DNA of 53,848 nucleotides from a virus, in IMG/VR virus record IMGVR_UViG_3300046454_000816, positions 1 to 53,848 of that record, one strand, 5' to 3'. The notes beneath the pieces are model-generated. The model did no database searches. It worked only from the letters and a program-made list of their open reading frames with translations, and was not told the origin of the DNA. This document shows positions 6,750-47,808 of this stretch, one piece after another. Made by a program: the position numbers and the translations under genes. How positions within the stretch are numbered: position 1 is the stretch's first letter; every line of letters begins with the position of its first letter.

Positions 6750-7622
6750 TCAGTGAATCCTTCCAGTGCCAATACGACCGTTTTTGATCATTTCATCCCT
6801 GAATTTGGCGTATTCCTGCTCGGTCTGATTGTTTGACGCCGCAATTTCCTTCTCGGCTTCCGTCAAATGCGCAGTGCGGCTGCTCGAGCCACGGCTGACC
6901 GGCGCGGCCGGAGGCGCGGCCTGACGCGACGGAACCGCCTTGGCGGCTTCGGCCATCGGATCATCGGCGCCGGTGTCGGCGTCTTGCGCCTTGCGGCGAC
7001 TGTCGCCGAAGATCCTTTCTTCGACTTCTTCGAAATATTCGTCGGTGTCTGGCGCAATGCCGGATTCAACCGTCCGATTGTGGGCGTCGATCATGCGGTG
7101 ATACAGCTTGGCGTCGCGGGCGCACTCCGGATGCGCGCGCACCCATGCGGCCGATCGGGGCGTAAGCTGGCTGGCGATCGCCTCGACCGGATCCTGCTGC
7201 ATGGTCCTGATCGGCTGGGGCGCTTCCGGCTTCGGCTGCGATTCCATGGCCGATTTGCCATTCTCGAGCTGGAGCAGGCGAGCGGCGTTGTCCGCCATCT
7301 GCGACTGAATCTCGGCCGCATTTTCGAAATCGCTGGCGCGCATCGCTTCGGCATAGGCCGACTTCAATATCGCGTTGCTCTCCCTGACGCGATCAATCGC
7401 CGAATTTACCAGCTGCAGCTGGCTGTCGGCCACCTCGTTCTGCGACTTGTGAGCGTTCTGCGCATATTCGTTGGCCTTGTTCTCGGCCTCGATGCGCGCG
7501 ACCCGTTCGCGCTCGAGCTGCGCTTTCAGCTCGAGGATCGGATCGGGCGCGTCCTGTTTGGGCGCATCCTTGACGGGTGGCGTCCAGTCCGGGTCGATGT
7601 TTGCGTTAGGTTCTTTTGCCAT
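6750..7622 (-). CDS. putative scaffolding protein
   Basis: A 290-aa acidic protein dominated by helix and coiled coil (about residues 28-125, rich in Glu, Ala, Lys and Gln). A Pro/Ala linker follows, then a C-terminal helical tail. This architecture, plus position two genes before the capsid genes in the transcript, is typical of phage scaffolds. The segment ASQLTPRSAAWVRAHPECA is a recognisable phrase in related phage proteins. The gene follows the GroES-like gene by three bases. No protease motif is visible. Confidence 0.6.
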   Translation of the reverse strand: MAKEPNANIDPDWTPPVKDAPKQDAPDPILELKAQLERERVARIEAENKANEYAQNAHKSQNEVADSQLQLVNSAIDRVRESNAILKSAYAEAMRASDFENAAEIQSQMADNAARLLQLENGKSAMESQPKPEAPQPIRTMQQDPVEAIASQLTPRSAAWVRAHPECARDAKLYHRMIDAHNRTVESGIAPDTDEYFEEVEERIFGDSRRKAQDADTGADDPMAEAAKAVPSRQAAPPAAPVSRGSSSRTAHLTEAEKEIAASNNQTEQEYAKFRDEMIKNGRIGTGRIH

Positions 7623-7625
7623 GGG

Positions 7626-8015
7626 TCACCAGATCATATCGGGATGTTTCACCCGCCCCTTGATGGAAGTGTCGACCACAATGCGGCAGAGCACGCCATT
7701 GATGGCGGTCGCCCAGCCGTCAGCTGGTCGAAAAATGGCCCAGTCGTGCAAATCAACAGTCCAGTCGAAAGTCCACTCGCCGCTGTTGACGAAAGCGTTG
7801 GAGCCCTTCATGACCACAAGGCCGATCTTGCTCTGGTAGCGGTCCTCGTCGCGGGTCTGGGCGGCGAGATAAAGACCAGACTTAGTCTTCTCAGGGCGCT
7901 GATAAATGGCCAAAAGCACTTGATTGTGAAAGATTTCGATGCCGGAAAGGTCACCCAGAGCATCCAGAATTTTCTTGGCCGGATCTTCCTCGTGCGCCAT
8001 CATTGCGTGAGCCAT
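7626..8015 (-). CDS. GroES (cpn10)-like protein
   Basis: A 129-aa protein; the ATG at 8015 shares one base with the previous stop (TGATG). Residues about 30-125 follow the cpn10 pattern: a strand with IEIFHNQVLLAIYQRP, the E-KT-SGL turn equivalent to the GroES beta-hairpin, then SKIGLVVMKG, DWAIFRPADG and NGVLCRIV strands. GroES-fold proteins cap GroEL, and T4 gp31 and RB49 CocO are known phage versions needed for capsid folding. Location beside scaffold and capsid fits that role. The mobile loop is not clearly conserved, so a co-chaperonin function is inferred. Confidence 0.6.
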   Translation of the reverse strand: MAHAMMAHEEDPAKKILDALGDLSGIEIFHNQVLLAIYQRPEKTKSGLYLAAQTRDEDRYQSKIGLVVMKGSNAFVNSGEWTFDWTVDLHDWAIFRPADGWATAINGVLCRIVVDTSIKGRVKHPDMIW

Positions 8016-8230
8016 CAAACACCTCTTTCGCGTTCTTCGGTCAGGCGCTCGGCTTCGTCCACGAGGTCAAGCGCGTCATTCAATCCGCGTAATTCGCCGA
8101 CTACTTCGCGGTAAGCTTCAAGGGTGAGGATGCCGCCGCCATAGGCCAGATCATCTTTTCGGCTGGCAATTCGCTGCTTGATCAGCTCGCGCAAGCATTG
8201 TGCTAGAACATTGCGCGTTGTCAACGCCAT
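8015..8230 (-). CDS. small helical protein
   Basis: A 71-aa protein with ATG at 8230 and AGGA seven bases upstream. It is almost entirely charged helix (LAQCLRELIKQRIASRK, ELRGLNDALDLVDEAERL). Its stop overlaps the GroES-like start. No known family. Confidence 0.5.
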   Translation of the reverse strand: MALTTRNVLAQCLRELIKQRIASRKDDLAYGGGILTLEAYREVVGELRGLNDALDLVDEAERLTEERERGV

Positions 8231-8294
8231 GACTTGATCCTGCTACGTTCTTGCTATATGACACGGGTTCAGCCCCAAGGGACCGTGACGATCG

Positions 8295-8340
8295 AGGGCC
8301 GCCTACGCCGGATGTACGCGAGGCGGCCCTTTTTTGTTTT
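8295..8340 (+). terminator. forward-facing intrinsic terminator in late operon
   Basis: Ten-base arms AGGGCCGCCT (8295-8304) and AGGCGGCCCT (8321-8330) pair perfectly and are followed by TTTTTTGTTTT on the plus strand. Flanking genes are on the minus strand. A weak plus-strand promoter-like pair (TTGATC 8234, TATATG 8255) lies upstream, so a short plus transcript ending here is possible. The spacer 8231-8339 holds no open frame of note. Confidence 0.55.
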
Positions 8341-8612
8341 CACTCTTGGCATGTTTCGCGGTAGCGACGGCAGTTTCCCATGCCTTCTTCACCGCGCTCC
8401 ATCTTGTATTGGCACGCGAGGCGAAGCTCCTCACATGTGCGGCCCCAGTTGCGATGATGGCCGGGCAGCGGGTTCACTTGGACGCCACCCGGCCCAATCT
8501 CGATAGACTGAGACCGGGCAGAGATGATGAAGCCTGCAAAAGCGAACAGCAGGATCAAAAGCCCCAAGGCAATGGCAAGTGCGTGATCGGTCACGCTCTT
8601 CTCGAAACTCAT
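8340..8612 (-). CDS. single-span membrane protein with Cys-rich tail
   Basis: A 90-aa protein; the ATG at 8612 overlaps the previous stop (ATGA). One transmembrane helix (about 11-32, IALGLLILLFAFAGFII) is followed by a soluble tail with four cysteines spaced within 30 residues (CEELRLACQ, NCRRY, TC). This could be a spanin- or holin-related protein, but neither signature is clear. It is encoded among structural genes, not next to the exported hydrolase at 47888. Confidence 0.5.
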   Translation of the reverse strand: MSFEKSVTDHALAIALGLLILLFAFAGFIISARSQSIEIGPGGVQVNPLPGHHRNWGRTCEELRLACQYKMERGEEGMGNCRRYRETCQE

Positions 8613-13100: not shown

Positions 13101-13317
13101 GGGGGTAAAGCTTGCCGTTCTTCAGGCGGCGAAACAATTTGTAGGACTTGATCGTTTTTTGCGGCGTCGGAGCCTCTTCCCACTCGCCCGCCTTGTTGAT
13201 CTTGCCGCCGTCCTTGTAGCCGGTGCGGTCATCGCCCTCGACTTCATCGTTCTGGTTGTGAACGGCGTGCGCCGTCATCAGCGCCGAGCGGATGGCCTTG
13301 CCGGAATCATTTGCCAT
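10105..13317 (-). CDS. 1070-aa multidomain (polyvalent-type) protein with HExxH motif
   Basis: The largest gene in the window. Residues about 57-222 form a domain with phrases LYPLFV, LAFRPGWH, VWAEVE, ITDRVPHGGTY and MKVNRVL that I recall from large polyvalent proteins of phages and conjugative elements. Residues 617-621 are HEMTH, a match to the HExxH zinc-peptidase motif, in an alpha-helical context. Residues about 725-960 hold a second polyvalent-type domain (GGDRSRLGR, GHDYMREP, GDVYGYFSPMG, HIGKTRVAITHPDLL). GG(K/R) motifs occur at about 36, 585 and 1043. It overlaps the portal gene by 11 bases. Such proteins can be packaged and injected; here that is inferred from position and size. 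Confidence 0.55.
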   Translation of the reverse strand: MANDSGKAIRSALMTAHAVHNQNDEVEGDDRTGYKDGGKINKAGEWEEAPTPQKTIKSYKLFRRLKNGKLYPLFVHRTREVPIGKWLAAEEGKPGEKGGVQSSLGELAFRPGWHSGTAPRASHIGGISTKNKSHAVNYRPYEHVWAEVEHPADVDVQSEANANARTMANGQPDPSTAHITDRVPHGGTYNYTTNPNNPDSWMISGGMKVNRVLGDDEVKALNMQQGAQPDLPRLHEMDPSQLHPSLHQTAALQGASPPRAPRAARDAGGQLITPPAPQVIKPPVDLSGYQDAPAQKLHDMPWRPLADVHADLGHMSEIPSHVQHFGHFMNETADKAASKGLTPRDLIKAYAITRSSMGRGALPRRTLEANGWQMPEGVDSLRPEGAMGEWLHTPMGQEYLHHAERGKVHAGAIADAVQKFRPFGKQNDTEGKGLQWAAENLPGMEGHVSKMVQASRHKDANPAMWRQFIKGVPGVNIAKAGFLGSMMGMGNQPTLDARQIILNTGKPTSEATKPMSRVGGAEQAVDRLAARQRALKLGIPEELEPYYQHLAHHAIWDKAAGEQTTHQDLMHAMRHAKDGGRIGRDLGGGAPGAPPPAAPTGGASGGLWTPKSPLAGHEMTHAMMSSGIFQPSELWGGKGDTDVQQYLKNTPSMTSANPDMVRQALDIAQKTHAVHPNFDSDMGQSYLNFKGDKQPIGQMQSTVAPIPGVTTKPVKNLEWEDFLKRNQGAHLINLGGDRSRLGRLTHIGGKKLGWDVDLHAGHDYMREPNKGAVWANAPGASTRIDNLVKELGEKGDVYGYFSPMGPKSVDSSVQMTDAVMSQLHANPLDRKVADQLSDLLKSGAFVTGNKAEDVENRAKAAESMQHFPGIHNAVEARDFMRDKLSGADRSLIMKYLDKAGWHQKGVPHIGKTRVAITHPDLLHLPGNMLGPRIVKLTGGSPTPSHFEHNTYKETTGGQYEGDLPPVLRHYALPDVVRDFVRNPRKGRVMHPMSADDKARSGWNKMTTEQKVIQPINEEMMAGVAHGLNVQKHLKALGLSGYKKGGKTLVQPPQQDDTVAKALRLTAQRGR

Positions 13318-15820
13318 CGCTCTTGCCTTTCGAGCTGGCGGCGGATTTCGGCCGCGCCTTGGCGACTTTGACCGCGGTGTCTCGCCTCACCGTCTCGAGC
13401 CTGTGTTCGTGCGCGTGGTCCTGCTGCTGCATGTTGCGCTCGTGTTGATGGGCCACGCCTTCCATCGCCATGGTGCGGTGGTCCTCGGCCTTTTTCATCA
13501 TCACTTCCTTGGCCAGACTGATCGCGCTCTCCTTGGCCTTGGCGTGCTGCTCCTCCTGCGCTCGAGCATCGTCGAGCGCAGTGTCGGCCGTTTTCAAATG
13601 CAGCTCCTTGGCGCGGGTGTCGGCGTTCTGCAATTCGGCCTGCGCCTTGGCCTGCGCGATCGTCATCTGGTGCTGCGCCGTCGCCTGCCCAGTCTCGGCC
13701 TTCATGCGCTCGGTGTCGGCCAGATGCTTGTCCACTTCGGTGTCGACCTGCCCGCCACCGGCGAGACCCTGCCCCTGCGCCTCTGCAATCAGACTCTGGC
13801 TCTTGGCGTCGGCCACTTTGGCGTCGGCCTGCGCCTTGATCATGCTGGCCTGCGCCTGCGTCGATTTGGCCTGCGTCTCGGCCTGCTGCTTGAGCAGCTC
13901 GGGCGGCGGCTTGGCCTGCGCCTCCGGCGGCGCCATGAATTGCTGCGGGTTGGAGAAGCCGAGCGCCTGAATCGCCGCGGTGTCGATCGCGATTGGATCA
14001 TACAGGCTGGGGTTTTGCTGCTGGAGCTGCTTGAGCGCCATCAGCTTCATGATGCGCTGGGCGTAGCTCGATGTGTTGGGGTCGGCCTGCGGCGTCAGCT
14101 CGTGATTGTCGAGCGCGGCGCGGAAAGTCTGCTCATCCCACTTGGCCGCAGGGCTCTTGTTCGACCGCCAGAATGCTTCCGGATTCTCCTTGAAGCAGCG
14201 CACCAGCAGGCGAAATTCCTGCGCTTGGGCTGAGTGCATGCGCTTGTGGACCGCGTTCAGCACCTTGGTCGCCTGCTCGATCAGCGCCAAAATGGTGCCG
14301 ACCGGAATGTCGGCCCGGCCCTCGCCGACTGGCAGCTCAGCGGTGCCGCCGACGCGCTGGCCGGTCTGCACCATGTTGTCGATCAGCTGCATCAAGGCTT
14401 GGCTGGGCGGCTGGTACGGCAGCGCCATGATGGCCTGATTGATCGGCAGGCCGCCGGTTTTGACCAGCGCGCCGCCGCCGGGCGGCACGCGAAATATGTT
14501 GGTGTTCTGGCGCGCACCGGTGTCGGCCATCAGAAAGCCGGGGAAGCTGGCGAACATGCCCGCGTCTAGCATTTCGCGCCAGCCTGCCGTGCTCGCGTTG
14601 GTGGTGTTGCCGAGGATGTGCAGCAGGCCGATGTCATAGAAGCCGAAGCCCGGCACGTAGACGTATTTGACGAAATTCTCGCGCGCCACCGGCAATTTCT
14701 TGGTGTTTTCGTCATAATTGCGGGTGATCGACAGGATCTTCTTGCTCGATAGGTCGATCGTGACGCGGTATGGAATTTCGAGGCCGCTTTCCTTGCCCTT
14801 GTGCTTGTGCTCGTAGCCTTTGAGGTCCAGCTCGCAATAGATTTCATAGATTTCGCGGTCGCGATCGTCCGGCCGCATGCTGCTCGGCTGCACGCCTTGC
14901 TGCTTGTTGGCCTCTTCCTTGGCGGCGTCGAGCTGGGGCTGCAGCGGCGTCATCAGGTCGACGTCGGCGTAGGCGCCGATGATCTGCATGCGCTTGACCG
15001 TCGACGGCTTCATCATCGACCGGTGTGTGATGCGCTTGGCGTTGGCCAGATCGGTGCAGCTGTCGTTGACGATCAGGTCATTGGCGTCGACCGACTCGCT
15101 GACCGGCCGGTTGCGCAATGGGCAGTTGTAGACTTTCTTGAAGGCGGTGCCGCCGAAGCCCAGCAGCAGGAACATCTTGTCGGTGTCAGGGTAATACTCT
15201 GTCGCCGTGATGGTCAGGTAGTGGTTGAGGTCTTTTTCGAGAGCTGTCGCTTGCGCATCCGCCTGCAACTCGGTGCCGCTCGAGCTGTCGTCTCGGATCT
15301 TGACGGGACCATCGGTCGGCAGCATTTCCGATCGGGCGTTGGCTTGGAATCGTAGGACTGCTTCCTGCAAGAGTGGATGTCTAACCTTGGACATGCCTTC
15401 GACCGGAGCGCCATCGGTCGAGCCGGAAACATTGGGCAGCTCGATCTTGAGCCCAAGCAGCCGGATGCCTTGAGCCCGCTCTTCAATCCAGTCGTTTCGG
15501 CTTTGCAGGTCATCGTCGACGCCTCGCAGCAGCTCATCCGATATGCGCGCCAGCTCCTCGTCGTCGATCTTATCGACCAGATTGTCGAACCAGCCCTCCG
15601 GACCGTTGTCTGGGCTCGGCAGGAGCGATTTGCCGTCGAGGCTGATAGTGACCGAGCCGTCGCTGTGCTCGATGCGGATGACGGCCTTGGGGTCGTCGCG
15701 ATCGGAGGTGTTGTCCGCGCCGCTGTCGTCGTGTTTAATTGATACGCCGGGCGAAATAGCCCCAGCCACGCCGCCATTGGTCACGCGGAGATTGGGGCTC
15801 AGCCCGGGCACGAGTGGCAT
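13307..15820 (-). CDS. portal protein
   Basis: An 837-aa protein starting at the ATG at 15820 with AGGA upstream. It has the layout of large P22-type portals: an acidic N-terminal domain, the segment YYPDTDKMFLLLGFGGTAFK (about 210-230), a stem and crown region with FVKYVYVPGFGFYDIGLLHILGNT (about 385-410), and ALPYQPPSQALMQLIDNM before the wing. The last ~230 residues are a long Ala/Gln/Lys coiled coil resembling a portal barrel. TerL lies upstream and capsid genes downstream. It forms the DNA-entry ring at one capsid vertex. Confidence 0.85.
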   Translation of the reverse strand: MPLVPGLSPNLRVTNGGVAGAISPGVSIKHDDSGADNTSDRDDPKAVIRIEHSDGSVTISLDGKSLLPSPDNGPEGWFDNLVDKIDDEELARISDELLRGVDDDLQSRNDWIEERAQGIRLLGLKIELPNVSGSTDGAPVEGMSKVRHPLLQEAVLRFQANARSEMLPTDGPVKIRDDSSSGTELQADAQATALEKDLNHYLTITATEYYPDTDKMFLLLGFGGTAFKKVYNCPLRNRPVSESVDANDLIVNDSCTDLANAKRITHRSMMKPSTVKRMQIIGAYADVDLMTPLQPQLDAAKEEANKQQGVQPSSMRPDDRDREIYEIYCELDLKGYEHKHKGKESGLEIPYRVTIDLSSKKILSITRNYDENTKKLPVARENFVKYVYVPGFGFYDIGLLHILGNTTNASTAGWREMLDAGMFASFPGFLMADTGARQNTNIFRVPPGGGALVKTGGLPINQAIMALPYQPPSQALMQLIDNMVQTGQRVGGTAELPVGEGRADIPVGTILALIEQATKVLNAVHKRMHSAQAQEFRLLVRCFKENPEAFWRSNKSPAAKWDEQTFRAALDNHELTPQADPNTSSYAQRIMKLMALKQLQQQNPSLYDPIAIDTAAIQALGFSNPQQFMAPPEAQAKPPPELLKQQAETQAKSTQAQASMIKAQADAKVADAKSQSLIAEAQGQGLAGGGQVDTEVDKHLADTERMKAETGQATAQHQMTIAQAKAQAELQNADTRAKELHLKTADTALDDARAQEEQHAKAKESAISLAKEVMMKKAEDHRTMAMEGVAHQHERNMQQQDHAHEHRLETVRRDTAVKVAKARPKSAASSKGKSDGK

Positions 15821-15852: not shown

Positions 15853-16053
15853 CTATACGCTCAGATCGGGCCCCGGATCAAATTCAGCCTCAAATTTGCG
15901 CAATCCCTCGCGAGCGGCCTCGTCGTCGGTCTCGGCGACGACGGTGTATTCGCCCCTAAGATCATGAGATGGGTCTGAAACGTGAACGCGCCACAAATGC
16001 GACGGCTTGCCGCCGAGCGCGACGTTGTCGACCGTAGCTTGAGCCCTGATCAT
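15853..16053 (-). CDS. small beta protein after Acb2-like gene
   Basis: A 66-aa protein; the ATG at 16053 overlaps the stop of the Acb2-like gene (ATGA). A run of alternating strands (LWRVHVSDP, GEYTVVAET) is followed by an acidic helix (DEAAREGLRKFEAEF), a small alpha/beta layout. No family is recognised. Tight coupling to the anti-defence genes makes an accessory role plausible. Confidence 0.5.
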   Translation of the reverse strand: MIRAQATVDNVALGGKPSHLWRVHVSDPSHDLRGEYTVVAETDDEAAREGLRKFEAEFDPGPDLSV

Positions 16054-16613
16054 TTGAACAGGCCCTTGCACGCCCAGAAAACGGTCAGCTCGAGGCTGGT
16101 CATGGCGAGCGACGCTTCGCGGCTTTGTGGCGCGCGGTTCATCAGCTCCTCCAGCTCGGCCGCCTTGTCCTTGATGGCGTCGGTCAGCTCGATAACTTCG
16201 TCCGATTGCGCCTTGTAACGCTTGGCGAAGCGGCCCGGTTTGGTGTGGGCGCCGCCTTGACGCGCGTCTGCTGGACCGTCGAACAGATCCTTGGTCTGCT
16301 TTTCGTTCTCGTCGTGCCATTGCCAGCCGTACAAGTCGCCGTAAACGTATTCGCCCTGCAATCCGTCGTTATTTGACGCCAGCAGAAACTTTCTCGGCTT
16401 GTCGTGGGTCAGGCCCTTGCCGTCGAGCGGTCCGCCGGTGCAGACGCCATTGTAGATTTCAGTCATCTCGCAGCCATCCCAGATCCATTCGTCCTTGTTG
16501 TGCCGGTAGAAGCCCATTGACTTGGCTGGCGCCAGCAATTCATGCGTCGGCAAGTGGTTGGCGTACCGCAGGCCGTGCCACGGTCCGCCAACGCACCTGC
16601 CGACATAAGTCAT
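16050..16613 (-). CDS. Acb2/Tad1-hairpin domain protein with duplicated GGP domain
   Basis: A 187-aa protein. Residues about 128-187 match the Acb2/Tad1 helical hairpin: RFAKRY, an acidic helix ending in ELMNRAPQ, then SREASLAMTSLE and a final FWA. The characteristic R-SLA-T-LE and W pattern is present. Acb2 proteins form oligomers that sequester CBASS cyclic nucleotides, and Tad1 binds Thoeris gcADPR. Residues 1-100 are two copies of a small beta module (CVGGPWHG at 7-14 and CTGGPLDG at 58-65). A 50-aa single copy is encoded just upstream. Activity is inferred; the fusion is unusual because known Acb2 proteins are short and stand alone. Confidence 0.7.
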   Translation of the reverse strand: MTYVGRCVGGPWHGLRYANHLPTHELLAPAKSMGFYRHNKDEWIWDGCEMTEIYNGVCTGGPLDGKGLTHDKPRKFLLASNNDGLQGEYVYGDLYGWQWHDENEKQTKDLFDGPADARQGGAHTKPGRFAKRYKAQSDEVIELTDAIKDKAAELEELMNRAPQSREASLAMTSLELTVFWACKGLFK

Positions 16614-16762
16614 GTTGCGTGAATCTCCACGAAGTGCCAGAAGCCGACCCCATCATTGCAATATTCGCCGCCGGGGCATGGCGTAAAGCGAGTTGGAAAG
16701 GCCAAAAACTGGCCTTTCCATGGCCCGTCGTAGCAAATGCCGACGAAGGCCGTTGTGGTCAT
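16610..16762 (-). CDS. 50-aa stand-alone GGP-type module
   Basis: A short gene with ATG at 16762 overlapping the upstream Tad2-like stop (ATGA) and stop overlapping the next start (ATGA). Its sequence (FVGICYDGPWKGQFLAF, GVGFWHFVE) aligns with the first module of the neighbouring Acb2-like protein (YVGRCVGGPWHG, MGFYRHN, WIWD). It is therefore a paralogue of that module. Function unknown; the double overlap strongly supports translation. Confidence 0.65.
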   Translation of the reverse strand: MTTTAFVGICYDGPWKGQFLAFPTRFTPCPGGEYCNDGVGFWHFVEIHAT

Positions 16763-17445
16763 CCGATAATCCGCCAATCATGGGCGCTGACGTCATCGGG
16801 CGAGGCTTGCCAGCCGAGCTGCAAGTCGCCGCCGGAATTTTTCAGCACATAGAACGGCAGGATGGTGCCCGTATGCGCAGGCAACGTCTGGATGTAATCG
16901 CGCACAGGGACCGGCAGCAGATCACCGGGCTTGGTGGTCGGCGGCGGGGTCACGGGCAGGGGATCCGGCTCGACCACCAACTTGCGCTTGCCATCGGCAA
17001 GGGCCAGCCACTGGTTGCGGCCGGTCCAACCGGCGCGCGACACCTTCTGGCCGCGCTCCATCACCTTCTGGGCCTGCTCGAAAGTCATCGGGCCAGCGTA
17101 GTCGCTGGGCAGATCGTGATCGGGATGAGCGCCGCCGCTGGGCAGATCATGGCCGGGGCGAGCGCCGCCTGACGGCAGGCCCTGATCGGGACGCGCGGGC
17201 CTGCCGGGCAATCCCTGATCGGGACGCGCGGGCCTGCCCGGCAGATCCTGATCGGGATGACCGGATACAGGCGGCGGAACCGGCTGGCCGGAGGCGTGCC
17301 CCGGAGGCGTCGGCGTCGGCTGGTGCGACGGATGGGCCGGGTGATCCGGGGGCACCGGCTTGCCGGTGGCGGGATCGATCGGCACGGGCTTGCCAGTGGC
17401 CGGGTCGGTCGGCGGCGCCGTGGGATGCGTGGGCTGATTTGCCAT
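16759..17445 (-). CDS. Tad2-like (DUF2829) protein with Pro-rich N-terminus
   Basis: A 228-aa protein. The ATG at 17445 is preferred because AAGGAGAGG lies eight bases upstream; an in-frame ATG at 17490 lacks a ribosome site. Residues 1-118 are Pro-rich with tandem repeats (DPATGKPVP twice, RPARPDQGLPG twice, LPSGGA twice). Residues about 120-228 are a Tad2 domain: MTFEQAQKVMERGQKV, AGWTGRNQW, PFYVLKNSGGDLQLGW, then SAHDWRIIG. Tad2 proteins bind and hide the Thoeris signal gcADPR. Residues 153-193 hold an insert compared with short Tad2. Binding activity is inferred from family only. Confidence 0.75.
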   Translation of the reverse strand: MANQPTHPTAPPTDPATGKPVPIDPATGKPVPPDHPAHPSHQPTPTPPGHASGQPVPPPVSGHPDQDLPGRPARPDQGLPGRPARPDQGLPSGGARPGHDLPSGGAHPDHDLPSDYAGPMTFEQAQKVMERGQKVSRAGWTGRNQWLALADGKRKLVVEPDPLPVTPPPTTKPGDLLPVPVRDYIQTLPAHTGTILPFYVLKNSGGDLQLGWQASPDDVSAHDWRIIG

Positions 17446-17493
17446 TGTGGTTTCCTCTCCTTGAGACCATGCGGGCCTCGTCGCCATCATATG

Positions 17494-17814
17494 CTACGCC
17501 TTCACTCCCGCGCCAGTGATCAGTCGACAGGTGCCATGAGTGGTCGGCGCGCTGGCGTCAGCGATCCATGACATGCAGCGGGTGGTGATGCAGTTGAACG
17601 CCTGCTGGATCTGCGCGTCGGTGGCGCCATGAACCATGCGCAAACCGCGCGTGGTCGCCACCTGATTCACGCCGCTGACCGGCGGCAGCGTGGCCATGCC
17701 GACGAAGGGACACCAGCACGTCTCGGCCAGCGTGATCGGCATGCCGCTGATCGGCGCGACTTGCGGAGTCGGCGGATCGGCTATCGGGTGGGCAATATGC
17801 GGGTCATCGGTCAC
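17494..17814 (-). CDS. unknown protein between Tad2-like genes
   Basis: A 106-aa protein with a GTG start overlapping the previous stop (GTGA). The N-terminus is Pro/Ile-rich; the rest has five cysteines (ETCWCPF, NCITTRC, GTC) that could form disulphides or a metal site, and a helix DAQIQQAFNCI. No family match. It sits between two Tad2-like genes, so a shared role is possible. Confidence 0.5.
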   Translation of the reverse strand: MTDDPHIAHPIADPPTPQVAPISGMPITLAETCWCPFVGMATLPPVSGVNQVATTRGLRMVHGATDAQIQQAFNCITTRCMSWIADASAPTTHGTCRLITGAGVKA

Positions 17815-17987
17815 GAGAACGCCCTTTCGGGTTTCTCTATCGGGCTGACGGCAGGCTTCTCGCCCGCCATGAAGGCGAAATATTTTTCCGCCGCCTCGAT
17901 AACCTGCTGCGGCGGCAGCGTGCTGGCAAGATTATTGGCGAAGGCGAGCGCCTGCACCCGCAGCTGAATCTTCTGATCTTCGGTCAA
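17811..17987 (-). CDS. small helical protein, TTG start
   Basis: A 58-aa protein. The TTG at 17987 is chosen because GGAGG lies eight bases upstream and it overlaps the previous stop as TTGA. The protein is helical (TEDQKIQLRVQALAFANNLAS, QQVIEAAEKYFAFMAG) with a Pro-rich tail. It has no recognised domain. Coupled to both Tad2-like genes. Confidence 0.55.
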   Translation of the reverse strand: MTEDQKIQLRVQALAFANNLASTLPPQQVIEAAEKYFAFMAGEKPAVSPIEKPERAFS

Positions 17988-18748
17988 TCGACTATCCTCC
18001 AGTCTTTCGCGAGCATATCGCTCTGAGATGCGAGCCAGCCCATCAAAATCTCGCCGGTCGCGGTTTTCATGATGATGCACGGCAGCACAAGCGCGGCGCC
18101 GCCGTTGTCGAGCGCGTAATTCTTGGCGTTGCGCGACCACAGATCGGCCGCCTGCACCTCGCGCGGGCCCTCCATGCCCGACAGGGCGATCCACATGTCC
18201 CTGCCGTTCCAGCCGCGACGCTGGACGCGCAGGCCGCATTCCATCGAGCGGATGGCGCAGCCGAAGTCGAAAAATTCAGTGTCAAAAGGGGCGGGCGACG
18301 GCGGCGGCGTCACCAGTCTGGGATCGATGCGCGAGGCGCCCAGCGGCATGTCGGGCGTTTCGCGGATGTCAGCGGCCATGCCGCCGGGCATGCGGTCCTC
18401 GCCCTGCATCTGCAGAACTTCAGCGACCCGGTCGTCGACCGTGACGCTCAAATGGACCAGATCTTCCATGTTCTGGCGCTGCATGGGCGTCTGGAGCGGG
18501 TGGCTCTCATACACATCCAGCGTCGGCGGCCGCACGAACCCCTCGTGCGTTTGCGGCGCAGCGCCGCCGAAGCCGCCCTGTCCATAGGGGATGTCGCCGA
18601 GGCGCGGGCCGGTCGGATGGGCCTCGTCGCTCGGATTGGCGCGACTAAAACCGGCGACAGGCACTGGCCCGCCATCCTTCAAGGCTGCGGCGATCGACGG
18701 CTTGATGTTTCCAGCTTTGTGCGGGTCATAGGGCATGGTGTTCTCCAT
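17984..18748 (-). CDS. second Tad2-like (DUF2829) protein, long N-terminal extension
   Basis: A 254-aa protein. Residues about 159-254 are a clear Tad2 domain: FDFGCAIRSMECGLRVQRRG, WNGRDMWIALSG, LPCIIMKTATGEILMGWLAS, then QSDMLAKDWRIVD. The QSD-LA-DW ending is the family hallmark. Residues 1-155 are a Gly/Pro-rich extension with a KDGGPV motif, a helix LVHLSVTVDDRVAEVLQMQ and a Pro stretch. The ATG at 18748 shares one base with the TerL stop; a second ATG at 18736 has GGAG better placed. Family role is Thoeris signal sequestration. Confidence 0.8.
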   Translation of the reverse strand: MENTMPYDPHKAGNIKPSIAAALKDGGPVPVAGFSRANPSDEAHPTGPRLGDIPYGQGGFGGAAPQTHEGFVRPPTLDVYESHPLQTPMQRQNMEDLVHLSVTVDDRVAEVLQMQGEDRMPGGMAADIRETPDMPLGASRIDPRLVTPPPSPAPFDTEFFDFGCAIRSMECGLRVQRRGWNGRDMWIALSGMEGPREVQAADLWSRNAKNYALDNGGAALVLPCIIMKTATGEILMGWLASQSDMLAKDWRIVD

Positions 18749-20376
18749 CAGACGCTGTAAAGAGGCGGGGGCTGCCTCACGTTAGCAAAATCCATCTCGT
18801 TAGCAAGATCGGCGAGGCGCTCTTCGGAGCGGATCAGCAGGCCGCTCTCGCGCAAATGGCGCATCGCCATCGATACGCTGTCGACCAGATCGTCATGTTT
18901 GCCCTTGGGAAAGCTGGCCACCTGCCGAATCACCATCTCAGCCCACGACTTGTCTGGCGCATAGACCATACCTTCGGAGAATAGGTGCTGCACCGAGTGC
19001 AGCCGGGCCAGCTTGTCCTGATTGCCGGGGTTGATCAGGTGGACGGCCCAGTCCTCATTGGCGTAGAGGCGGCGCAACTCTTGGGCGACCGATATGCCGC
19101 TGGCCTTGGCCTCGATCAGCAGCCTGTCAACCTTCATCGTCTTGCAGGTCTCGGCCGCTTTCTTGACCAGAGCGTTCATCTCGAGCCGGTCCTGAAAGGC
19201 GAACATCAGCACGACCTTGCTCATGCCCTCGATGCCGCCGCCCTTGGGCATGGGGAACGGCTTGCCGTAACGATCGGCGCCGCGGGTCGCCATTGTGTCG
19301 TGCTGGCCGGAAAATATGCCCCAGATGGTGAGCGCGCTGTAATCGTTCTGGGTTTTTTCAGTGTAGGCGGTGTCGAGGCTGGCGAGGATGAAATCGAGCG
19401 GCGGGTATTCCGGCTGCACCCACAGCATCCAGTCGGCGTCCTTGATCACGCCGCCGCCGCGGGGCGTCGGGCTCTGCTGCATCTGCCCGGCGGTGGCGTA
19501 GGGCCCGAGGATGCGCTCGTCGCGCTCGACCACCCACAGAGGGAAACGGACCGGGAACAGCAGCTCGCCTTCGGTCTGGCGCGGATCCTCGAACCCCAGC
19601 TTGGTCATGCAGGTGCGATCGGGGTCGAAGCGCATCGGCAGCATGATGTGGTCGTAGCCCATATTGCCGTCGAGAATCACGCCGGAGACGTCGCGCTCAT
19701 GCACGCGCTGCATCACCACGATGATCGCCGAGGCGTCGGGCCGGTTGAGCCGGGTCGGCACGGTCTCCTGAAACCACGTGATCACGGTTTCGCGCTCGGC
19801 TTCGGAATCGCCGCCCTTGACGCTGTGCGGGTCGTCGATGATGACGATGTCGGCGCGCCAGCCGGTCATGCCGCCTGCGGCCACCGCGGCGCGCCAGCCG
19901 GTCGCCGTGTTTTCGAACCGCCGCTTGGCGTTCTGGTCGCCGGTGAGCTGGACGCGGTCGCCCCACAGATCCTTGTACCAGTCGCTCTCGATCAGGCGGC
20001 GCATGCGGGTGTTGTCGCGCTCGGCCAGCTCGATGTTGTGGCTGGCGCAGAGGAAGCGGATGTGCGGCTTGTTGCGCGGGCCCCAGATCCACGCCGGGAA
20101 AAACACCGAGACCAGCATCGACTTCATCATGCCCGGCGGGACGTTAACCAGTAGTCGGTTGTAAACCTCGTCGTCGACGCGCTCCTCGCGCTCGATCGCC
20201 TCGAGGTGCCCGGCGATGAAATCGATGTGCCAGTTGTGGTAATAGATCTGGCCGGGCTCGATGAATTTCCACGCGCGCTTGACAAACTCGACCAGACTGC
20301 GCTCACAAGCCTCCTTCTCTATCGCCTTTTTCAAGGCGTTTGGGTCAAGCTCCCGGGGCAGCGTCAGCGTGGTCAT
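18748..20376 (-). CDS. terL: terminase large subunit
   Basis: A 542-aa packaging motor. A Walker A-like VPPGMMKS lies at 79-86, Walker B IVIIDDP at 177-183 and the coupling region VVMQRVHERD at about 220-229. The C-terminal nuclease has SLDTAYTEK (D335), IEAKASG (E422) and HDDLVDS (D495, D496, D499), which are RNase H-like acid residues. It cuts concatemers and drives DNA into the head through the portal. The start overlaps the stop of a 35-aa membrane protein (ATGA). Confidence 0.92.
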   Translation of the reverse strand: MTTLTLPRELDPNALKKAIEKEACERSLVEFVKRAWKFIEPGQIYYHNWHIDFIAGHLEAIEREERVDDEVYNRLLVNVPPGMMKSMLVSVFFPAWIWGPRNKPHIRFLCASHNIELAERDNTRMRRLIESDWYKDLWGDRVQLTGDQNAKRRFENTATGWRAAVAAGGMTGWRADIVIIDDPHSVKGGDSEAERETVITWFQETVPTRLNRPDASAIIVVMQRVHERDVSGVILDGNMGYDHIMLPMRFDPDRTCMTKLGFEDPRQTEGELLFPVRFPLWVVERDERILGPYATAGQMQQSPTPRGGGVIKDADWMLWVQPEYPPLDFILASLDTAYTEKTQNDYSALTIWGIFSGQHDTMATRGADRYGKPFPMPKGGGIEGMSKVVLMFAFQDRLEMNALVKKAAETCKTMKVDRLLIEAKASGISVAQELRRLYANEDWAVHLINPGNQDKLARLHSVQHLFSEGMVYAPDKSWAEMVIRQVASFPKGKHDDLVDSVSMAMRHLRESGLLIRSEERLADLANEMDFANVRQPPPLYSV

Positions 20377-20480: not shown

Positions 20481-20698
20481 AGCTTCCTCACACACTGGAA
20501 AGTCATAGTGTCCTTGTGGGCGTCAATGCTCATCTCGACACTGTATTCAGGCCCAAGGGCGTCCAGCTTGTGGCGCATGACCGGCCGCATCTCTTCGGCG
20601 AGCTGCAGCGCGGTGCGCCCGGCCAGCACGATCGTGAGCGGCTCGAGCAGCGTCAGCTCCCTGACGCGCTGTTTGATGGTTTCCTCATGCCCCGGCAT
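20477..20698 (-). CDS. small alpha/beta protein
   Basis: A 73-aa protein; the ATG at 20698 shares a base with the previous stop, and a GTG one codon earlier is also possible. Helices (ETIKQRVRELTLLEPLTIVL) precede strands at the C-terminus (YSVEMSIDAHKDTMTFQCVRK). No known family. Located between a WYL-like protein and TerL. Confidence 0.5.
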   Translation of the reverse strand: MPGHEETIKQRVRELTLLEPLTIVLAGRTALQLAEEMRPVMRHKLDALGPEYSVEMSIDAHKDTMTFQCVRKL

Positions 20699-20907
20699 CA
20701 CTCGACCGCCTTCCAGCTGTGAATGCCCGCCATGGCGAAGCCGCGCGCGGGCTCATCGCGATCGGCGTCAAAAGCGTGCAATAGCCACTGATCCTCCGGG
20801 TGCCACTGGTTGGAGCCCCACTCGATCGTCAGCGGAAAAATGTGGCGTATCCGCCGCTCGCCGCGGTGGTTGGTGTAATCAATTTCAACCGTTGTCCGCC
20901 TCTTCAT
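20698..20907 (-). CDS. WYL-like small protein
   Basis: A 69-aa protein. The ATG at 20907 has GAGG nine bases upstream; another ATG at 20916 is possible. The pattern YTNHRGERRIRHIFPLTIEW, then WHPEDQWLLHAFD and a final FAMAGIHSWK, resembles the small phage proteins related to WYL domains (ligand- or nucleic-acid-binding modules). It overlaps the end of the small terminase gene by 23 bases. Role unknown. Confidence 0.5.
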   Translation of the reverse strand: MKRRTTVEIDYTNHRGERRIRHIFPLTIEWGSNQWHPEDQWLLHAFDADRDEPARGFAMAGIHSWKAVE

Positions 20908-46480: not shown

Positions 46481-47272
46481 ATGAATTTTAAGGTTGTCTC
46501 TCTGGCCGCGATGGCTCTGGCGCTTGCCGCTGGTCCTGTCATGGCGCAAAACGCGCTCGGCGTCGGCGTCGGCGTCTCCAATTCGCGCTCCAATTCCAAC
46601 GCTGTCGCGGATCCTGTCCAGAATAACCGCAACACCGCCCTGTCGGCCGCTCAGTCGCAGTCGCGCTCCAACTCCAACTCCAACGTCAACAGCCGCATCA
46701 ACAGCAGCCAGAACGTCGGCGTCCGCTCCGTCAACGCCAATCAGTCTGGCGCGGCCAACACCAACACCTTCAATTCGACCACGACCGGCCAGTCGCCCAG
46801 CGTTTTCGCGCCGGGCATGTCGGCCGCCGGTATCGAGAGCTGCAACGGCTCCGTCTCGCTGGGCGGCGCCGCTGTGGGAGGCGGCGGCGCGCTGGGTTTT
46901 CCTTGGCAGGACGGCCCCTGCAACAAAAGGCTGAATGCCCGTACCTTGTGGGCTTTTGGTCAGCACGAAGCCGCGTTGCAGACTTTGTGCTTGGACGATG
47001 AGCTGGCCCGCTCGATGGTCGCTGGCGGCATCCGCTGCCGCGTCGGCGCTTACGCCGAGGTGCGCGTCGCCTCGACCTACAGCTCCGGCCCGGTCTATAA
47101 GGGCGAATATCACGGCAAGGTTCCCGGCGAACATCCGCGCGAATTGAAGTCGCTCGCTGCTTCTGATTATTCCGACAGCAAGGGACGTCATTACGTGGTC
47201 GCCGCCTGCGGCGAAAAGGGCGCGCGCAAGTCCGCCGATGCGGGCGTCTGCGTCAAGTTCGCCTCCAACTGA
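46481..47272 (+). CDS. exported Asn/Ser-rich protein
   Basis: A 263-aa protein with a Sec signal (MNFKVVSLAAMALALAAGPVMA, cut after AQ-type). Residues 30-110 are Ser/Asn low complexity with repeated RSNSN units. The C-terminal half has paired cysteines (ESCNGS, GPCNKR, TLCLDD, IRCRVG, AACGE, GVCVKF), suggesting disulphides in a folded outer-membrane or periplasmic domain. Ribosome site GGAGGAAG. No family is recognised. Expression of exported proteins by a phage suggests envelope remodelling or superinfection control. Confidence 0.55.
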   Translation: MNFKVVSLAAMALALAAGPVMAQNALGVGVGVSNSRSNSNAVADPVQNNRNTALSAAQSQSRSNSNSNVNSRINSSQNVGVRSVNANQSGAANTNTFNSTTTGQSPSVFAPGMSAAGIESCNGSVSLGGAAVGGGGALGFPWQDGPCNKRLNARTLWAFGQHEAALQTLCLDDELARSMVAGGIRCRVGAYAEVRVASTYSSGPVYKGEYHGKVPGEHPRELKSLAASDYSDSKGRHYVVAACGEKGARKSADAGVCVKFASN

Positions 47273-47445: not shown

Positions 47446-47808
47446 ATGAAGAAGATCTTTGTTCTCGCCGCTGGCCTGTCCATGCTTGCGGCCCCCGCTT
47501 TCGCCCTCGACTTCGGCGCCGGTGGCGGCACCGTCATCACCAACTCTCACTCCACGACCGTCGTCGGTTCGCTCGGCCATGCCGCTGCGATCGGCGGAAC
47601 GACCGCTGGCGCGACTGGCGTTGCGGGTGGTGGCGGCGCTGCCGCTGGCACCTTCTTCGGCCCGGTTGCGGCTGGCGGTGGCGGGGCCGGAACGGCGTCG
47701 ACCGTTTCGTCCACGGGCGCCGTGTCTTCGGGCAACGGCATCGCCGGTGCGACCTCCAGCGGCGGATCGAGCGTGATCGCGATTGGCGGCGGCGTCGCCG
47801 GTCACTGA
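47446..47808 (+). CDS. exported Gly-rich protein
   Basis: A 120-aa protein with a Sec signal (MKKIFVLAAGLSMLAAPAFA). The mature part is almost only Gly, Ala, Ser, Thr and Val (VAGGGGAAAGTFFGPVAAGG), as in small outer-surface or matrix proteins. No cysteine. It follows the structured leader and ends at a strong terminator. Function unknown. Confidence 0.55.
   Translation: MKKIFVLAAGLSMLAAPAFALDFGAGGGTVITNSHSTTVVGSLGHAAAIGGTTAGATGVAGGGGAAAGTFFGPVAAGGGGAGTASTVSSTGAVSSGNGIAGATSSGGSSVIAIGGGVAGH

Follow-up and report, generated by a model that had tools for sequence, protein, structure and literature searches.

Tad2-like and Acb2-like sponge domains in a probable counter-defence island between the terminase and portal genes of an uncultured phage

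In other phages, Tad2 and Acb2 proteins soak up bacterial immune signals. Described Tad2 proteins (PF11195) include SptTad2, HgmTad2/AcrIIA7 and the Tad2 of phage SPO1, and known Acb2 proteins (T4 Vs.4, PDB 7uq2; Acb2, PDB 8h2x) are small and stand alone. Acb4 (PF13876; PDB 9e4w) is a sponge directed against the cyclic-oligonucleotide-based antiphage signalling system (CBASS). Eight of eight tested Acb4 homologs bind 3'3'-cyclic GMP–AMP (cGAMP), and SPO1 gp1.3 sequesters 3'3'-cGAMP and rescues phage T4 from CBASS (PMC11722364). Here we describe the small genes located between the terminase large subunit (TerL) and portal genes of IMG/VR record IMGVR_UViG_3300046454_000816, the whole of which (53,848 bases) constitutes the window. 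These genes encode two Tad2-like domains and one Acb2/Tad1 hairpin domain, and the stretch very probably represents a late-expressed island of counter-defence cargo whose products sequester immune nucleotide signals. Its parts belong to known families. The arrangement is new: a conserved mosaic island, in which sponges are exchanged on a shared, undescribed module.

The initial annotation had claimed exactly these three domains, and Pfam located all of them where it had placed them. In profile searches against the Tad2 and Acb2/Tad1 models, each domain lies above the curated cut-off. PF11195 covers residues 161-253 of Tad2A (E 2.4e-18, 66.9 bits, cut-off 25) and residues 120-227 of Tad2B (E 1.9e-14, 54.4 bits, cut-off 25), and Acb2_Tad1_hairpin (PF24729) covers residues 133-187 of the fusion protein described below (E 7.6e-14, 52.1 bits, cut-off 27). 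Searches of the whole record found no further Tad2 or Acb2 copies. Among solved structures, the Tad2A domain matches SptTad2 best (8wjd, 3.7e-12) and also matches HgmTad2/AcrIIA7 (8kbi) and SPO1 Tad2, being closer to the former two than to SPO1 Tad2; the Tad2B domain matches SptTad2 at 2e-6.

The window proteins share the domain and core motifs of described Tad2 proteins, but differ from them by N-terminal extensions of about 120-160 residues, by the presence of two copies in one operon and by the altered motifs of Tad2B. Tad2A keeps all positions of the RxGWNG and GWLASQxDM...DW motifs. In Tad2B, the W, A, S, D and DW positions are retained, whereas GWNG is changed to GWTG and GWLASQ to GWQASP (GWQASPDDV). 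Tad2A is composed of an N-terminal motif (IKPSIxxAL), a variable, disordered-looking linker and the C-terminal Tad2-like domain, and Tad2B has a Pro/Gly-rich repetitive N-terminus before its diverged domain. The IKPSIxxAL motif was considered as a virion-targeting signal common to structural proteins, an idea that was dropped because no genes other than the Tad2 genes of the window's own clade carry it. In other phages, many Tad2 proteins have another fused N-terminal domain (GYLVEY...YVSWSP..F..AY), for which no solved relative was found; it is seen at L129:4770-4991 and at some 22 further loci. A likeness between a beta domain fused to many Tad2 proteins of other phages and the N-terminal domain of Tad1 was considered, but a profile search of solved structures gave it no support.

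In the window, the Acb2 hairpin forms the C-terminal part of a two-module fusion rather than a stand-alone protein. The first ~105 residues of the fusion are two GGPxxG modules, with the motif G-x-C-x-GGP-x-x-G ... G-x-Y ... W-x-W, and the separate gene p49, kept in relatives, provides a third copy. Bacterial genomes yielded no copy of the module, and wherever the sequence reaches the C-terminus of a GGPxxG fusion, the terminal domain is Acb2 or Acb4. AlphaFold models residues 138-186 of the fusion as a confident two-helix hairpin (predicted local distance difference test, pLDDT, ~90), preceded by beta structure at low confidence. With the whole model, Foldseek returned no match at E <= 0.001, and only the hairpin part is informative. 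For the hairpin, the complex of T4 Vs.4 (Acb2) with cGAMP (7uq2) ranks first in Foldseek and VIA-align. The superposition has Z 6.2 and a root-mean-square deviation of 1.9 Å over 55 residues, a Z that helical pairs commonly reach, and the structural match to Vs.4 is by itself no proof of Acb2 membership. Matches to CbTad1 (Z ~4) are confined to the hairpin (residues 131-187), the GGPxxG part before it being modelled at low confidence. Y133 and K148 of the fusion have the same spacing as, and may correspond to, Y11 and K26 of Acb2, which contact cGAMP.

Relatives were gathered by scans for TerL, Tad2, p106 and GGPxxG. At least five further lineages of uncultured phages (L118, L203, L197, L173 and L202), and contigs near them, have the order TerL, Tad2, small genes, GGPxxG-fused sponge, p66, portal; the L202 fragment starts just upstream of Tad2 and TerL is not seen in it. 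In these five lineages, the fusion ends not in an Acb2 hairpin but in Phage_gp49_66 (PF13876; E 3e-20 to 2e-25, 73-89 bits, cut-off 27), that is, Acb4, which is absent from the window. The N-terminal GGPxxG module of the window is ~50% identical to that of L118. Judged from these sequence comparisons, Acb2 and the non-homologous Acb4 have been exchanged on a homologous N-terminal module in the same slot. In the portal tree, the window pairs with the Acb4-bearing L118 (support 100/99), and the pair lies inside a clade whose other Acb-bearing members have Acb4. Given this position, parsimony suggests that Acb2 took the place of Acb4 along the branch leading to the window. The window further differs from its sisters in carrying Tad2B and in the order of p49 and p106, and tandem Tad2 genes, with one degenerate copy, are also present in L173 and L202.

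The replacement of one sponge by a non-homologous one in a single slot is strong natural evidence that function keeps the slot, and it marks this slot as a real counter-defence site. It also supports a sponge role for both the Acb2 and Acb4 families in uncultured phages, and presents the sponge domains as interchangeable parts on the conserved GGPxxG module. The anti-defence island proposed in the initial annotation is thus well supported by domain identity, the layout in several lineages and the same-slot exchange.

The gap between TerL and portal also shows turnover. The near-identical phage L029 has an additional TSCPD-like gene between the Acb2 and p66 genes that is absent from the window, and in L007 the linker of Tad2A is block-replaced. 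In relatives farther away, TerL and portal are retained but enclose different cargo: a single Tad2 accompanied by an outer-membrane beta-barrel (L008), a dCTP deaminase (L003 and L021) or, in the sponge-free L012, a Lar-like restriction-alleviation protein downstream of TerL (7995-8384; PF14354, E 7.8e-11). Such variety, including the L029 gene, is what would be expected of a merely permissive site, where unrelated useful genes collect and the sponges sit together by chance. We consider this unlikely, since the layout from Tad2 through the GGPxxG-fused sponge to p66 is conserved at portal identities down to ~70%, the place of a lost Acb4 was taken by a different anti-CBASS domain and not by random cargo, and Tad2-Acb4 pairs recur in unrelated phages. 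The Lar-like anti-restriction gene of L012 is counted in favour of a counter-defence island. Individual cargo genes in this region include the TSCPD-like gene of L029 (1957-2292), which scores 23.0 bits against PF12637 (cut-off 22.8), and the beta-barrel gene of L008 (9612-10232, between Tad2 and portal; PF13505, E 8e-15), whose product could alter the host surface. In L024, an open reading frame (ORF) that resembles a calcineurin-like phosphatase on visual inspection of its motif DLHGR...GDYIDRG adjoins Tad2 upstream of TerL, between the terminase small subunit (TerS) gene and TerL (~7089-7760).

The pairing of Tad2 with Acb4 extends beyond the clade. In a set of 69 dereplicated Tad2 loci outside the clade, taken from other viral contigs, Acb4 lies no more than 600 bp away at 15, always on the same strand (15/15), and one further locus has Acb4 farther off. 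Accordingly, 15 of 16 Acb4 placements fall within 600 bp, against 13.7% expected (binomial p 1.5e-12). In L135, the PF13876 relative adjoining Tad2 matches 9e4w at 0.0017. Acb2 is also found next to Tad2 outside the clade (for example in L138 and L163), although in this unbiased set of loci it is no more frequent than chance predicts. In the cultured Klebsiella phage vB_KpnP_PW7 and the isolate MW202545, Acb4 and Tad2 genes are adjacent as in the clade, although these pairs lack the GGPxxG fusion and lie outside a TerL-portal gap.

Nor is the late position peculiar to the window. The initial annotation had contrasted it with a position among early anti-defence genes, but it is not unusual: several cultured phages carry Tad2 or Acb2 among head genes. 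In Pseudomonas phage phiAH14a, Tad2 is flanked by portal and capsid genes; in Ruegeria phage 45A6, it follows a terminase gene and a gene of portal size. Both resemble the window in having Tad2 within the terminase-portal-capsid block but have no Acb2 fusion, and the Tad2 of 45A6 has a different N-terminal domain. A Vibrio phage likewise has Tad2 near its capsid gene, and an Acb2-like gene lies among the head-tail genes of Sinorhizobium phage Aussie. The late head-block position, the recurrence of Tad2 among head genes of several phages and the conserved N-terminal motif of Tad2A would fit a virion or packaging role, with Tad2 and Acb2 folds reused as accessory head proteins or ejected proteins. 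Such a role is extremely improbable: relatives that share the TerL and portal do without these genes, and in other phages Tad2 and Acb2 are also found outside head blocks, in early or accessory regions.

Under the counter-defence reading, the island would be expressed together with the late head genes. We infer this late timing from position, as we do ligand binding and a benefit against Thoeris or CBASS from the evidence above. Tad2A, and probably Tad2B, would bind ADP-ribose-type signals of Thoeris, the GGPxxG-Acb2 fusion would take up cyclic di- or trinucleotides of CBASS, and relatives would do the same job with Acb4 on the same module. Co-expression with the head genes would agree with reports that a major head protein is sensed by Thoeris (PMC12043709) and that a CBASS cyclase senses RNA from terminase genes (PMC10686824). 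The sponges sit in the late operon that makes the capsid and terminase products reported as triggers of both systems.

The spacing from GWxG to W is 59 in Tad2A and 73 in Tad2B, compared with 61 in SptTad2, 67 in HgmTad2 and 49 in SPO1 Tad2, and by this measure both window proteins have the long insertion of SptTad2 and HgmTad2. A review links this insertion to cyclic dinucleotide binding (PMC12043709), and Tad2A and Tad2B may therefore bind cyclic dinucleotides as well. Long-insertion Tad2 forms bind cGG strongly (PMC12043709), which raises the alternative that the sponges mainly target housekeeping dinucleotides of the host, such as cyclic di-GMP (c-di-GMP), and reprogram the cell instead of removing immune signals. 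This is highly unlikely, since the pairing with Acb2 or Acb4 suggests CBASS as the target and the tested Acb4 proteins avoid cGG (PMC11722364).

Several observations weigh against an island dedicated to sequestering immune signals. Tad2B is altered at motifs that are conserved elsewhere, and its specificity may have changed or been lost. AlphaFold gives no confident fold for the GGPxxG module (pLDDT 50-60 or lower), and the fused Acb2 may or may not still form a hexamer. In the reciprocal test, Tad2 lies within 600 bp in just 2 of 60 Acb4 loci, and the pairing is therefore a habit of these Tad2 genes and not of Acb4. In addition, the beta-barrel and dCTP deaminase found in the slot have no known anti-defence role.

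The initial annotation had proposed a coupled operon of six or seven genes between portal and TerL. Seven small genes are present, all on the minus strand, mostly with overlapping stop and start codons (Table 1). Read from the sequence, the successive junctions are TGATG, TTGA and GTGA, then a 48-nt gap that holds a strong ribosome site, and finally ATGA three times. No terminator-like sites were found on the coding strand of the island, and promoter-like sites in it are at chance level. These small ORFs represent real genes, as their ratios of nonsynonymous to synonymous substitution rates (dN/dS) are ~0.14-0.37 between the window and L118 and gene order is largely conserved among relatives.

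Table 1. Positions of the island genes and their flanking genes in the window.
Feature	Description	Position	Strand	Match or relatives
TerL	island flank	18748-20376	-	60% to MW202675 in tblastn against annotated terminase large subunits
Tad2A	254 residues, first island gene	17984-18748	-	Tad2-like domain 17990-18268; Pfam PF11195
p58	58 residues, coupled to Tad2A	17811-17987	-	homolog in L118
p106	106 residues, cysteine-containing	17494-17814	-	found only in this island
Tad2B	fourth island gene	16759-17445	-	Tad2-like domain 16765-17088; Pfam PF11195
p49	free-standing GGPxxG module (50 codons), gene before the fusion	16610-16762	-	homologous to the two modules of the fusion
GGPxxG-GGPxxG-Acb2 fusion	187 residues, sixth gene	16050-16613	-	Acb2/Tad1 hairpin 16053-16217; Pfam PF24729
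p66	66 residues, upstream of portal	15853-16053	-	homologs in L008, L012, L021, L024
Portal	head-to-tail connector, island flank	13307-15820	-	Pfam SU10_portal, E 1.3e-13

The initial annotation had also suggested that the unnamed members of the island may be new inhibitors. Possible candidates are p106 and the GGPxxG module, which within the clade occur only in sponge-bearing members, but not p66. The latter persists in relatives lacking the Acb domain (L008 and L024) or any sponge (L021), and therefore belongs to the phage backbone and is not specific to the island. Fifteen relatives of p106 were found in viral contigs, all inside this operon (15/15), and none among 50,697 phage records; its AlphaFold model, based on six sequences, is not interpretable (pLDDT 42). 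It is conceivable, though we hold it only tentatively, that GGPxxG serves the signal sponges of viruses as a dedicated partner, with Acb4 and Acb2 folds being swapped on it, and that the strictly co-inherited p106 is a further, previously undescribed anti-defence protein of the island. These two small families are testable counter-defence candidates. p58 has no match in Pfam or NCBIfam, and its first 45 residues are 93% identical to those of the L118 homolog, with a dN/dS of 0.25.

A host assignment from genomic relatives of the portal was dropped, as such relatives came from just two bins, of different phyla, which are probably misbinned phage contigs. Elsewhere in the window, a 69-residue WYL-domain-like protein is encoded between TerS and TerL (20698-20907, minus strand), scoring just under the Pfam cut-off and giving a weak WYL match in PADLOC. 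Near the end of the record, two genes on the plus strand (46481-47272 and 47446-47808) encode proteins with signal-peptide-like N-termini.

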